Below, in pieces: positions 32,056 through 37,486 of a stretch of 64,000 nt of DNA. This DNA is from Peiella sedimenti. GTDB lineage: Bacteria > Pseudomonadota > Alphaproteobacteria > Caulobacterales > Caulobacteraceae. Where the stretch lies: NCBI RefSeq assembly GCF_030504955.1, contig NZ_JAUKTR010000003.1:124001-188000 (forward strand). The letters are read 5' to 3'. How positions within the stretch are numbered: position 1 is the stretch's first letter; each line of letters starts with the position of its first letter. The notes under the pieces are model-generated. The model was given only the letters and a program-made list of their open reading frames with translations. It did not search any database and was not told the origin of the DNA. The translations under genes and the position numbers were made by a program.

Positions 32056-32943
32056 CTAAACGCCCGCGCCCGCGCCGCGCAGCACCTCCAGGAGAAGCTG
32101 GCTTGGGAAGCGCCGCTTCTTGACGATGGCGTAGAAGCGCTCGGTCACCCCCGGAATGCGGCAATGCTCCACCAGCACGCCGCTGGCCAGTTCGTCCCGC
32201 ACGACGATCGGCGGGACCAGGGTCACGCCCTCGCGCTCGCGGGCCAGCAGACGCAGCATGGCCATGTCGTCCACCTCCGCCAGGATGATTGGATGGATGC
32301 CCGCCAGCTCCAGCATCCGATCGAAGGCCACGCGGATATCGCTGTCCAGGCTGGGCAGCAGAAGCGGTTCGGTGCTCAGGTCCTCGGGGAAGCGGAATCG
32401 GCGCCTGCCGAGGCGCGGCCGCCCCACCAGGCTGACCGGCTGTTCGTTGAGCAGGTGGTTGCGCAGGGACGAACGAGCGTCCAGCGGCGCGGCGCTATTG
32501 GCCAGCACCACGTCCACCGCATGCGCCTCCAGCTGCGCCAACAGATCGCGGATGTTCCCTGAACGGACGATCAGCTCTACGTCCGGTCGCCCCACCAGGG
32601 GCCGCAGGAACTCCAGCTGAAAGTTTCTCGACAGGGTGGTCAGGGCCCCGACCCGCAACACCTGTCGGCTGTCGGCGGGCCGCCCGCCCAGCGTGCTCAT
32701 CAGTTCGTCGCCGGCCTTGAACACGGTGTCGGCGTAGTCGAGCGCGATTTGCCCCGCCTCGGTCAGGACCAGCCGCTTGCCCACCCGCTCGAACAGCGGG
32801 TGGCCCATCTGATGCTCCAGCTTCTGAATCTGAACGGACAGGGCCGACTGCGACAGGTTCAGCCTCGCCGCCGCCCGGGTCAGGTTTCCCTCGTGCGCCA
32901 CCGCCCAGAAGTATCGCAGGTGGTTGAAGTTCAGCGCCGCCAT
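32056..32943 (-). CDS. LysR-family regulator, probably of the divergent dab operon
   Basis: 295 residues. N-terminal winged HTH (NFNHLRYFWAVAHEGNLTRA, then AARLNLSQSALSVQIQKLEH) and the periplasmic-binding-like effector domain. The sequence is of the NhaR-like branch (HLRYFWAVA start). Divergent from dabB with a palindromic site between them, which is the usual arrangement for a LysR activator and its target. It may sense inorganic carbon status, by analogy with CbbR/CcmR-type LysR proteins (inference). Confidence 0.9.
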   Translation of the reverse strand: MAALNFNHLRYFWAVAHEGNLTRAAARLNLSQSALSVQIQKLEHQMGHPLFERVGKRLVLTEAGQIALDYADTVFKAGDELMSTLGGRPADSRQVLRVGALTTLSRNFQLEFLRPLVGRPDVELIVRSGNIRDLLAQLEAHAVDVVLANSAAPLDARSSLRNHLLNEQPVSLVGRPRLGRRRFRFPEDLSTEPLLLPSLDSDIRVAFDRMLELAGIHPIILAEVDDMAMLRLLAREREGVTLVPPIVVRDELASGVLVEHCRIPGVTERFYAIVKKRRFPSQLLLEVLRGAGAGV

Positions 32944-33045: not shown

Positions 33046-34605
33046 GTGTCGATCCTCCTGCTGCCCCTGCTGGCTCCGGTCCCGCTGCTGCTGAGCGCGG
33101 GCGTCAGCTTTCTCAGCCGGGGGCGCCGGCCCCGCCTGGCGGTTGGGCTGGCCGAGGGCGCGACCCTCCTGTCGCTGGCCCTGGCCATGGTTTCGGCCAT
33201 CGGTCTGGCGATCTCCGGCGGCGGCTCCAGCGCCCTTCTGGGGGTGGGCGAGATCGGTCTCTCGGCGCGGCTGGACGCGGTCAGCGCGGCCATGCTGGTG
33301 CTAGTCGCCTTCATCGGATGGGTCGTGGTCCGGTACGCCGGAACCTATCTGGACGGCGAGGCGCGACAGGGCCGCTTCATGGGCTGGCTGTGCCTGACCC
33401 TCGCGGCGGTGCTGCTGCTGGTGGTCTCCAACAATCTGATTCAGCTGGCCCTGGCCTGGGCGGCGGCCGGCCTGTTCCTGCAGCGCCTCCTGCTCTTCCA
33501 TCCCGAGCGGATCGCGGCCCAGCGCGCGGCGCGCAAGAACTTGATCATCAGCCGCCTGGCCGACGGCGCCCTCGCTCTCGGCGCGGTGGGCCTGACCCTG
33601 GCCTACGGCGGGACCGACATCGGTCTGATCCTGGAGAGTGCGCGCGCAGGAGAGGGCGGGGGCCTGGCGGTCGCGGCGGCCGGTCTGCTCGCCCTGGCGG
33701 CCCTTCTGAAGTCGGCCCAGTTCCCCTTCCACGGCTGGCTGACCGAGGTCATGGAGACCCCGACACCCGTCTCCGCCCTGCTGCACGCGGGCGTCATCAA
33801 CGCCGGCGGCTTCCTGCTCATCCGCTTCGCCGACGTCATGCTGCTGGCCCCCGGCGTGCTGGCCGTGCTGGTCATGATCGGCGGCTTCACGGCCCTGTTC
33901 GGCAGCTTGGTCATGCTGACCCAGCCGGCAGTGAAGACCTCACTGGCCTGGTCCACCGTGGCCCAGATGGGCTTCATGATCCTCCAGTGCGGCCTGGCCC
34001 TCTTCCCCCTGGCCCTGCTGCACATCCTGGCCCACTCGCTCTACAAGGCGCACTCCTTCCTCGCCTCGGGCGGCGCGGTCGAACGTGTGACCCAGATTCG
34101 GCGCCCCGGACCGGTGGCCATCCCCGGCGCGGGGGCCGTGGCGCGCGCCTTTCTGGCGGCCTTGGCCATCTACGTCGTCATCGGCCTGGGCTTCGGCCTG
34201 ACCCACAAGTCGCCCCAGACCCTGGCCCTGGGCGCGATCCTGATCTTCGGGGTCGCCTACATGCTGGCCCAGGGCTTCGCCGACGCCGCCCCGGCGGCCC
34301 TGACGCGCCGTACGGCGGTCTACGCGGTCGTCACCTCCGCCGGCTACTTCGCCTTGCAGATGGCGGCGGTCCAGCTGACCTCGGGCGTGCTGCCGCCCAC
34401 GCCCGCGCCCGGCGGGCTGGAGTGGGCCCTGATGGTCCTGGCGGTGTTCAGCTTCGGCGTCGTCGCGGTGGTCCAGGCCATGTTCCCGCTGTGGGCGCAC
34501 CATCCCGCGGCCGCGGGCCTGCGCGTGCATCTGTCCAACGGCTTCTACGCCAACGCGGTGTTCGACCGCCTGATCGGCGGCTGGTCCGTCCGCCGCCCAT
34601 CCTGA
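33046..34605 (+). CDS. dabB: DabB, proton-conducting membrane subunit of the inorganic carbon transporter
   Basis: 519 residues from a GTG start with GAAGGGAA upstream. Around fourteen hydrophobic helices with the antiporter signature of Nuo L/MnhA ([40 protein letters not shown], then [16 protein letters not shown]), all conserved in the Proton_antipo_M family. In the DAB system this subunit passes cations to drive the DabA carbonic-anhydrase-like subunit. The immediately following dabA gene (15-base gap) distinguishes it from a complex I or Mnh subunit. Confidence 0.9.
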
Positions 34606-34619
34606 CCGGAGCGCTTCTC

Positions 34620-37043
34620 ATGTCCACGCCTCCATCCGCGTCCGTCACCGGACGGCTTCAGGCCGCCGCCGAGCGCGCCGCCCGCGCCATTCCGCCGGTC
34701 TGGCCCCTGGCTTCCAGCGTCGCTGTAAACCCCTACCTCGGCCAGGCGAGCGAGCCGCTCGAGGTCGCCGGCGCCCGGCTGGCCCGGATCGTCGGCGCCC
34801 CCGTCAGCCTGCCGCGCAGCTGGTACGCCGCAAGGATCGCCGAGGGGCTCATCACGGACGAGGATCTCCTGGCGGCCTGGATCGACGGGGACCGAAATCT
34901 GCGCCCGGCCGGACTCGCGGCCCTGAAGGCTGCCGCCGCCGTGGAGGCGCCTGGCCCCCAGCCCCTGCCGACCATCGCCGATCTGGCGGCGAGGGTATCC
35001 GGCATCGACTGGCCGGGCCTGATCGCCGAACGCTTCGGCGCCTGGGCGGCCGCCTATTTCGACGAGGGCCAGGCCCTGTGGGCCGGGCCGCGCGGCAAGG
35101 GCGCCTATGTGGCCTGGAAGGCCGTCGCCTCCCACGATCTGACGCCCGAGATCGCCGGCCTGCCCGGTTTCGCCCTGCACGTCTCCGAGGCGCCCGACAG
35201 CGCCTCCGCCCTCATGGCGCGGATCGTTGATCGCCTCGACCTCGGACAGGAAGCGCTGGAGACCTACTTTCACCAGATGCTGATGACCCTGGGCGGCTGG
35301 GCCCAGGCGGCGCGCCACCGCCTGTGGCAGGCGGAGCTGGCGGGCGGCGCCGACGCCACGACGACGGATTTCCTGGCCATCCGCCTGCTGTGGGAGGAGG
35401 CGCTGTTCCTCCGTTACCAGTCCCAGATCGCGGATGGATGGACCGAGGTCCGCGCCGCCCACGCCCAGCCGTTGACCCCCACCGCCGACCTGGTGATCGA
35501 CGCCATCCTGCAACTCGCCGGCGAGCGGGCGGCCCAGCGCCGACTCGCCGAGACGCTCGCCGCTCCGGCCCCCGCCGCTCCGCGTGAGCGGCCGGCTCTG
35601 CAGGCGGCCTTCTGCATCGATGTCCGCTCCGAGGTCTTCCGCCGCGCGCTTGAGAGCATCAGCCCACGCATCCAGACCCTGGGCTTCGCCGGATTCTTCG
35701 GCCTGACCACCTCGCATCGCCGCTTCGCTTCAGACGTGGACGAGTTGCGCCTGCCGATGCTGCTGAACCCGGGGCTCAGTTCCCGCGCCGGCGCGCCCCA
35801 GCTGGCGGCGGCGGACCACGACGCCCGCGTGAAGGCCCGGGCCAAGCGCGCCTGGGGCCGCTTCAAGCTGGCCGCCGTCTCCTCCTTCGCCTTCGTCGAG
35901 GCGGCGGGCCCCGTTTACGTGGGCAAGCTGATCGGCGACGCCCTCGGCCTCAAGCGCCAGTCTGCGCCGAATGACCCCGCGCCGCGGCTGGAGCCGGCCC
36001 TGGGCCTGGCCGATCGGGTCAAGGCGGCCGAGACCATCCTGCGGGCCATGTCGCTGACCTCAGGCTTCGCGCGGCTGGTGCTGCTGCTCGGCCACGGCGC
36101 CAATGTGGTCAACAATCCGCACGCCAGCGCCCTGCATTGCGGCGCCTGCGGCGGCTATTCCGGCGAGGTCAACGCCCGGCTCCTGGCCCAGCTGCTCAAC
36201 GACGCCGAGGTGCGGGCCCAGCTCGCGGGGGCGGGCATCTCCATCCCCGCCGACACCCTCTTCGCCGGCGGTCTGCACGACACCACCACCGATCAGGTGA
36301 CCCTCTACGATCAGGATCACGACGCCTCGGAGCACGCCATGGACCTGGCGCGCGCGGGCGACTGGCTCGCCGCCGCCGGTCGGCTGACCCGCGCCGAGCG
36401 CGCCCTACGCCTGCCTCGCGCAGCCTCGGAAGCGGCCATCGCCCGCCGCAGCCGCGACTGGGCCGAGACGCGCCCCGAATGGGCTCTGGCCGGATGCCAG
36501 GCCTTCATCGCCGCTCCGCGCGCCCGCACCGCCGGCCGTAGCCTGGAAGGCCGGGCCTTCCTGCACGACTACGACTGGAAGCAGGACGCCGGCTTCGGCG
36601 TGCTGGAGCTGATCCTCACCGCGCCCGTGGTCGTGGCCAGCTGGATCAGCCTGCAATACTACGGCTCGACCGTGGCCCCAGCGGTGTTCGGCGGCGGGGA
36701 CAAGTTGCTTCACAACGTCGTCGGCGGCCTGGGCGTGGTGGAGGGCAACGGCGGCCCGTTGCGCGTGGGCCTGCCCTGGCAGTCGGTGCACGACGGCGAA
36801 CGCTTCGTCCACGAGCCCCTGCGCCTGTCCGTGTGCATCGAGGCGCCGCGACAGGCCATGACCGAGGTGCTGCGCCGACACGAGGGCGTACGCGCCCTGT
36901 TCGACAACGGCTGGCTGCATCTGTTCGCCCTGGACGATCAGGGCCGCATGGCCTGGCGTTATGCCCGCGACCTCGAGTGGACCGCGATGAATCCCGCCGA
37001 TCAGCCATCAGCGGCGCCGGCGCGCCTCAGGGTCGTCGTCTAG
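34620..37043 (+). CDS. dabA: DabA, zinc-dependent CO2-hydrating subunit of the inorganic carbon transporter
   Basis: 807 residues from the ATG at 34620; the open frame reaches back to 33003 but that portion overlaps dabB in another frame and is not coding. It is a DUF2309/UPF0753 protein. Proposed zinc and catalytic residues are all present: C332 and D334 in [13 protein letters not shown]492 in [15 protein letters not shown] and C507 in [14 protein letters not shown]; the spacing of the last two (15) equals that in Halothiobacillus DabA (H524/C539). It converts CO2 to bicarbonate vectorially with DabB at the inner membrane, trapping inorganic carbon for carboxylases. Confidence 0.93.
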
Positions 37044-37081
37044 CGGCCTGCGACCTTGCATCGATCAGAGGAGATTTCACC

Positions 37082-37366
37082 GTGAGCCCGACCTGGCCCA
37101 AGCCCGTCACCAGCCTCTCCGACGACGCCGCGCTCCAGGCCCGGCTGTCCTTCGTGCTCGAGCACCCCGACATGAGCCCCTGGCTGAAGACCGCGGTGCG
37201 CTCGATGCTGGCCCGCGCGTCCGGCGACGTTCTCAACGACCTTGAGATTCTCAACGACATCGCGCGCCTGCGACACGCGCTGTCGGTGCAGGCCGCGGGA
37301 CAGGGGGCTCCGGAGACGCCGCGCGAGCCGGCGGCCGAAACACGACCGCTCAGCCTGATCCACTAG
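37082..37366 (+). CDS. Small soluble protein, third gene of the dab operon
   Basis: 94 residues from a GTG start with AGAGGAG upstream; the open frame extends back into dabA in another frame but the Shine-Dalgarno sequence fixes the start. Predicted all-helical core (DDAALQARLSFVLEHPDMSP, WLKTAVRSMLARASGDVLND, LEILNDIARLRHALSVQ), then a Pro/Glu-rich tail. No signal peptide or membrane helix. It lies 38 bases after dabA on the same strand, followed by no other co-directional gene before the tRNA. No family recognised; an accessory or regulatory role in carbon uptake is suggested only by position. Confidence 0.7.
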   Translation: MSPTWPKPVTSLSDDAALQARLSFVLEHPDMSPWLKTAVRSMLARASGDVLNDLEILNDIARLRHALSVQAAGQGAPETPREPAAETRPLSLIH

Positions 37367-37409: not shown

Positions 37410-37486
37410 TGGCGCACCCGACACGACTCGAACGTGTGACCTTTGCCTTCGGAGGGCAACGCTCTATCCATCTGAGCTACGGGTGC
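37410..37486 (-). tRNA. tRNA-Arg(CCG)
   Basis: Full cloverleaf on the minus strand: acceptor GCACCCG/CGGGTGC, D arm GCTCAGATGGATAGAGC, anticodon loop CTCCGAA with anticodon CCG, T arm ACACG-TTCGAGT-CGTGT. The 3' CCA is encoded (TGG at 37410-37412 on the plus strand). It reads CGG codons, frequent in a high-GC genome. Confidence 0.95.

Follow-up and report, generated by a model that had tools for sequence, protein, structure and literature searches.

What is the small gene that stands directly behind dabB and dabA in Peiella sedimenti, and does it belong to the transporter that those two genes encode? The window (the whole stretch of 64,000 nucleotides that was analysed) holds a dab locus for inorganic-carbon (Ci) uptake, and an earlier note on it had read the third gene as a conserved, small, soluble partner that could regulate or stabilise the DAB complex.

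The locus opens with a LysR-family regulator (32056..32943, minus strand; PF00126 E 9e-25, PF03466 E 4e-24) divergent from dabB, and a LysR orthologue stands divergent before dabB in most of the dab loci examined. The NuoL-like membrane subunit DabB (33046..34605, plus strand; PF00361, Proton_antipo_M, E 9.5e-41) is encoded 14 nt ahead of dabA (34620..37043, plus strand), whose product, the vectorial carbonic anhydrase subunit, matches PF10070 (E 7e-261) and the DabA2 structure 9rd0 from H. neapolitanus (E 2.2e-174). Alignment with 9rd0 shows that the window DabA keeps C351, D353, R355, H524 and C539, the five zinc-site residues (Cys/Asp/Arg/His/Cys) named in PMC13144422. With a PF10070 domain carrying these residues and an adjoining NuoL-like DabB, the two genes form a DAB operon, as the earlier note had read them. 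The third gene (37082..37366, plus strand) has a GTG start and 94 codons, the last of which ends at 37363, followed by a TAG stop at 37364-37366; exactly 38 nt separate the dabA stop codon (37041-37043) from the GTG, and a ribosome-binding site, AGGAG, can be read at 37069-37073 on the plus strand, 8 nt upstream of the start. The earlier note was thus accurate about the length, the spacing and the ribosome-binding site. A search of the gap between dabA and the small gene found no terminator-like or promoter-like site, and we infer that the two are co-transcribed. The first feature past the operon, and its boundary, is a tRNA-Arg(CCG) gene on the opposite strand (37410..37486; ARAGORN), which starts 44 nt after the operon ends. 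It lies beside a dab locus whose position differs among related genomes, and tRNA genes are common attachment sites of islands.

Is the third gene more than a chance open reading frame? The earlier note had taken it as genuine, and comparison with other genomes bears this out. In a genus sample of 131 Brevundimonas genomes, dabA was found in four, and in all four a homologue of the small gene lies directly behind it; homologues are also found in other alphaproteobacterial families. The E2 gene that precedes the window dab locus is on other contigs, with no dab adjoining, in G029 and G074 (B. poindexterae and B. huaxiensis contigs), and it has no dab behind it in six further Brevundimonas genomes. 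Read from the sequence, kdpA adjoins the dab/small-gene locus in G140, and an integrase-like gene follows the small-gene copy in G074. Because dab and the small gene are found at differing genome positions and with differing neighbours, their linkage is not passive shared synteny.

Purifying selection, which the earlier note had proposed as a check, is present, and it acts on the core of the protein. For the closest pair, G029 and G074, dN/dS is 0.30 at a dS of 0.35, and every resolvable pair falls below 1; values for the window copy are near saturation (dS 1.2-1.9), and so the G029/G074 value bears the weight. M31, S32, W34 and K36 (M-S-x-W-x-K) and N52-L57 (NDLEIL) are invariant in 14 sequences, and mean pairwise identity is 58% across residues 20-66 and 18% across the remainder. 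Of the copies on the family tree, that of the window diverges most and has the longest branch. Weak matches (E 0.01-0.07 in other Brevundimonas, E >0.002 in a phylum scan) were left uncounted. A second match in the window's own genome (G000:C6:203754) is antisense within carA and was rejected as chance.

In an AlphaFold2 model based on the 14-sequence alignment, residues 14-27, 33-43 and 47-73 are predicted to be helical, and their pLDDT mostly exceeds 90. The protein had been described as all-helical, which suits residues 14-73 of the model; residues 1-13 and 74-94 are predicted to be disordered. No meaningful match to the small protein was found in Pfam, NCBIfam, PHROGs, PADLOC or the PDB sequences, and a fold search against the PDB found no resembling solved structure (best E 3). 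Matches to BcsR (E 0.11) and leptin were dismissed as chance. No anti-phage defence profile in PADLOC was matched, no phage homologues were found, and a PII ferredoxin-like domain is absent, judging by Pfam and by the all-helical model. Published descriptions of the family were not found, nor was DUF6671 mentioned, in a literature search that mostly excluded subscription journals; within that literature, the family is so far undescribed. We delimit a Ci clade by the M-S-x-W-x-K and NDLEIL core, the three helices and a neighbouring Ci transporter or cysD-like/DUF6671 module. The window protein has the core and the predicted helices, and such neighbours were found in about 22 of 22 loci.

A search with a consensus query through one genome per species (84,980 species) gave at least 14 loci, an under-count in that it used a single exact-match peptide pattern, and the consensus gave 88 records in a plasmid collection. 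The same contig search with the divergent window protein alone found nothing, and the consensus was needed. About 22 alphaproteobacterial loci of the Ci clade were examined, and all lie in an inorganic-carbon context. At 14 of them (the window, L029-L031, L034, L035, L037-L039, L042, L045, L047, L048 and L158), the small gene follows dabBA directly or via cysD-like/DUF6671 genes. At three or four (L023/G036, L024=L040/G017, L033 and L138/G092, where L033 and L138 may come from a single organism), the context is sbtA-DUF6671, with SbtA matching PF05982 at E 2.5e-50 and DUF6671 matching PF20376 at E 1.6e-42; G036 and G017 have no dabA. Weaker evidence comes from L036, where only a DabA fragment is seen upstream, with cysD-like/DUF6671, and from L032 and L041, contig-edge cysD-like-DUF6671 loci that end in or near the cysD-like gene. 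In Nitrobacter hamburgensis, the small gene lies ~700 nt behind an apparent truncated DabA start, beside an alpha-carboxysome operon. A phylum scan added one new alphaproteobacterial member, also behind dabBA-DUF6671.

The fullest layout, with LysR divergent from dabB-dabA-cysD-like-DUF6671-small, was seen in Aurantimonas, Acidiphilium, a marine alphaproteobacterium and plasmids of Mesorhizobium terrae and Mesorhizobium INR15; several members of the Ci clade are plasmid-borne. Shorter forms are dabB-dabA-DUF6671-small in Aminobacter, G989 and a Hyphomicrobiales bin, dabB-dabA-small in Brevundimonas and Parvibaculum, and sbtA-DUF6671-small in Brevundimonas and a Caulobacteraceae bin. Between dabA and the small gene, a CysD-like PP-loop protein (PF01507) and DUF6671 recur (L045:5106-6895, L047:5177-6939, L030:4175-5943 and others).

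How general is the association? In a class sample, dabA was present in 48 of 385 genomes and the small protein in two of the 48, although at most 14 candidates were scored per genome and some may have been missed. Another 40 alphaproteobacterial dab loci, 14 of them from other Caulobacterales, were inspected for several kb downstream, and none has the small gene; the closest Caulobacteraceae DabA (72%) is among them. The earlier note had held that absence beside other Caulobacterales dabA genes would count against its idea, and this is partly what we see: 14 of the 16 Caulobacterales genomes with dabA in an order sample have no small gene behind it, whereas all four Brevundimonas dabA genomes do. 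sbtA is present in 35 Brevundimonas genomes, and the small gene was seen with three only. Since most dab loci and most of these sbtA genomes lack the gene, neither transporter needs it. On a quick version of the DabA tree, its presence changes seven times, against 11.8 in shuffles, and none of 500 shuffles was as low; all four members of a Brevundimonas clade have the gene, and it turns up again in a distant clade (Aurantimonas, Mesorhizobium INR15). Most loci have no third gene after dabA, a few have a PII-like gene, and others have a cysD-like gene with or without DUF6671; the survey therefore indicates that the third gene of dab operons is variable. A PII-like gene stands directly behind dabA in L057, L074, L077 and L080, as in Nitrobacter, and plasmid 1 of N. 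hamburgensis (L051:3-11104) carries two near-identical tandem dab/PII operons beside its alpha-carboxysome operon. The small gene is a real but optional accessory of Ci-uptake loci, and a minority feature of them. What stands of the small soluble partner proposed earlier is a dab-linked gene found in several genomes and kept by selection; its description as a conserved partner of the DAB complex does not.

We suggest, with a probability of roughly 0.55, that the product of the gene is a small, soluble adaptor or regulator of CO2/bicarbonate uptake with three helices, co-expressed with the transporter and serving a partner common to the DAB and SbtA settings. The linkage to Ci genes spans two deep DabA clades, and because one family stands behind DAB in some genomes and behind SbtA in others, both settings probably have the partner in common. 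By this account, the small protein would have been swapped between transporter types, and the conserved face made up of M31-S32-x-W34-x-K36, where helix 2 begins, and N52-D-L-E-I-L57, within helix 3, would most likely dock on a partner in the Ci pathway. That partner would probably be a regulator that responds to Ci, a carbonic anhydrase or, where present, the CysD-like/DUF6671 pair, and not DabA alone. Linkage by itself is no proof of function: in S. aureus, a DAB homologue has mpsC as its third gene, and mpsC is dispensable (PMC6689103).

It is possible, though unlikely, that the three-helix protein is instead a dedicated subunit or assembly factor of DabA-DabB, binding to DabA so as to gate the complex or keep it stable. 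An obligate DAB subunit would be expected in most dab operons and only there, and the gene is neither. In favour of this reading, purified DAB2 is unstable and tends to dissociate (PMC13144422), and in all four Brevundimonas dab genomes the small gene is the only accessory gene and comes immediately after dabA; since DUF6671 is missing from the window genome, that partner is not required for the protein to be retained. However, the 40 dab loci that lack the gene include a DabA as near as 72%, and one or two genes intervene after dabA elsewhere. The family also accompanies sbtA in genomes without dabA, which makes the suggested stabilisation of a DabA complex improbable, and a subunit dedicated to binding DabA would not be expected to pair with two unrelated transporters.

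A further, less probable explanation starts from the genes that often precede the small one, which is last both in dabB-dabA-cysD-DUF6671-small and in sbtA-DUF6671-small. The CysD-like protein (PP-loop, ATP-using; PF01507 E 1e-44), DUF6671 and the small protein would act jointly on a signal or modification controlling bicarbonate uptake, and Brevundimonas dab operons would have kept the last gene only. The AlphaFold model of DUF6671 resembles the NTP-pyrophosphatase fold of YjjX/RdgB (E 1e-4 to 5e-4), with a cysteine-rich end (zinc ribbon), and in L160, L161 and L164, where the small gene is missing, DUF6671 also adjoins sbtA or dabA. On the other hand, cysD-DUF6671 lacks the small gene in L096, L102 and L109, and the window genome keeps the small gene in the absence of DUF6671, which argues against strict dependence on it. 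The Ci-linked CysD-like/DUF6671 module itself appears to be undescribed. Least probable of all, and quite unlikely in our view, is that the gene is a mobile passenger on horizontally moving Ci cassettes, kin to plasmid-backbone genes and without effect on uptake: its plasmid homologues and the plasmid-borne Ci-clade members, the shifting position of dab with an integrase-like gene after the G074 copy, the seven gains and losses on the DabA tree and the mpsC precedent in staphylococci (PMC6689103) would suit it, but a passenger should not have an invariant core under purifying selection, be restricted to two unrelated Ci transporters or be clustered on the DabA tree.

We return, then, to the adaptor shared by DAB and SbtA. 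An extended form of it, which we offer only tentatively and regard as doubtful, would make this new small protein the probable output end of the CysD-like/DUF6671 nucleotide-handling module, setting Ci uptake in alphaproteobacteria that are heterotrophic and lack RuBisCO. DAB transporters are widespread in heterotrophs. A role in CO2 fixation was ruled out for Brevundimonas, as RuBisCO was found in none of 12 genomes checked (Nitrobacter has one), and DAB as a substitute for a lost carbonic anhydrase was also ruled out, with beta-carbonic anhydrase genes in 20 of 20 genomes checked. One Caulobacteraceae genome without RuBisCO (G017; L024:3370-8244) carries a beta-carbonic anhydrase, a LysR-like gene, SbtA, a second beta-carbonic anhydrase, DUF6671 and the small gene in one compact cluster. 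Convergent to the small gene at two sbtA-type loci (L023:6249-7516, L024:8029-9361) and two Devosia loci (L036:5929-6902, L041:1551-2849) is pyrC (dihydroorotase) or a relative, and pyrimidine synthesis uses up bicarbonate. If the protein does accompany both DAB and SbtA, it would provide a first handle on transporter-independent control of bicarbonate supply. It would also give two uncharacterised families, its own and DUF6671, a testable context, and whether accessory genes matter is relevant to engineers who transfer dab operons into new hosts.

Compared with known DAB/DAC operons, the window locus is like that of DAB2 from Halothiobacillus neapolitanus in its DabA zinc-site residues, and its LysR-dabB-dabA arrangement is that of other alphaproteobacteria; the two-subunit DAB2 has no counterpart to the small soluble third gene. 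The earlier note's account of DAB as a two-component system is right for DAB2 but not for DAB1, where a small membrane gene, hneap_0908, comes as the third (PMC13144422). By description, hneap_0908 likewise belongs to a dab locus and is small and hypothetical, but its product is transmembrane, whereas the window protein is predicted to be soluble. Also compared by description, mpsC of mpsABC lies likewise downstream of the DAB homologue mpsAB, but it is reported to make no contribution, to give no phenotype and to be confined to staphylococci (PMC6689103). Among regulators of bicarbonate transport, SbtB is a small PII-like protein paired with SbtA (PF05982). It too is soluble and encoded near a bicarbonate transporter, and some sbtA loci hold a member of the Ci clade; the Ci-clade proteins, at 75-94 aa, differ from it in being all-helical with no PII match. 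Distant relatives by sequence are small uncharacterised proteins from plasmids of Pseudomonas, Acidovorax and their kin, such as WP_306110118.1 of pWW0, which share a homologous core, P-x-x-S-x-W-x-K ... RDPVDxxNDA, at profile scores of 46-53 bits. These form a clade separate from the Ci clade (support 96/98), carry NDA in place of NDLEIL and sit among plasmid-backbone genes with no Ci genes nearby; therefore, the fold is not specific to Ci. The three-helix unit is probably an old small domain, one clade of which has since become attached to inorganic-carbon loci.
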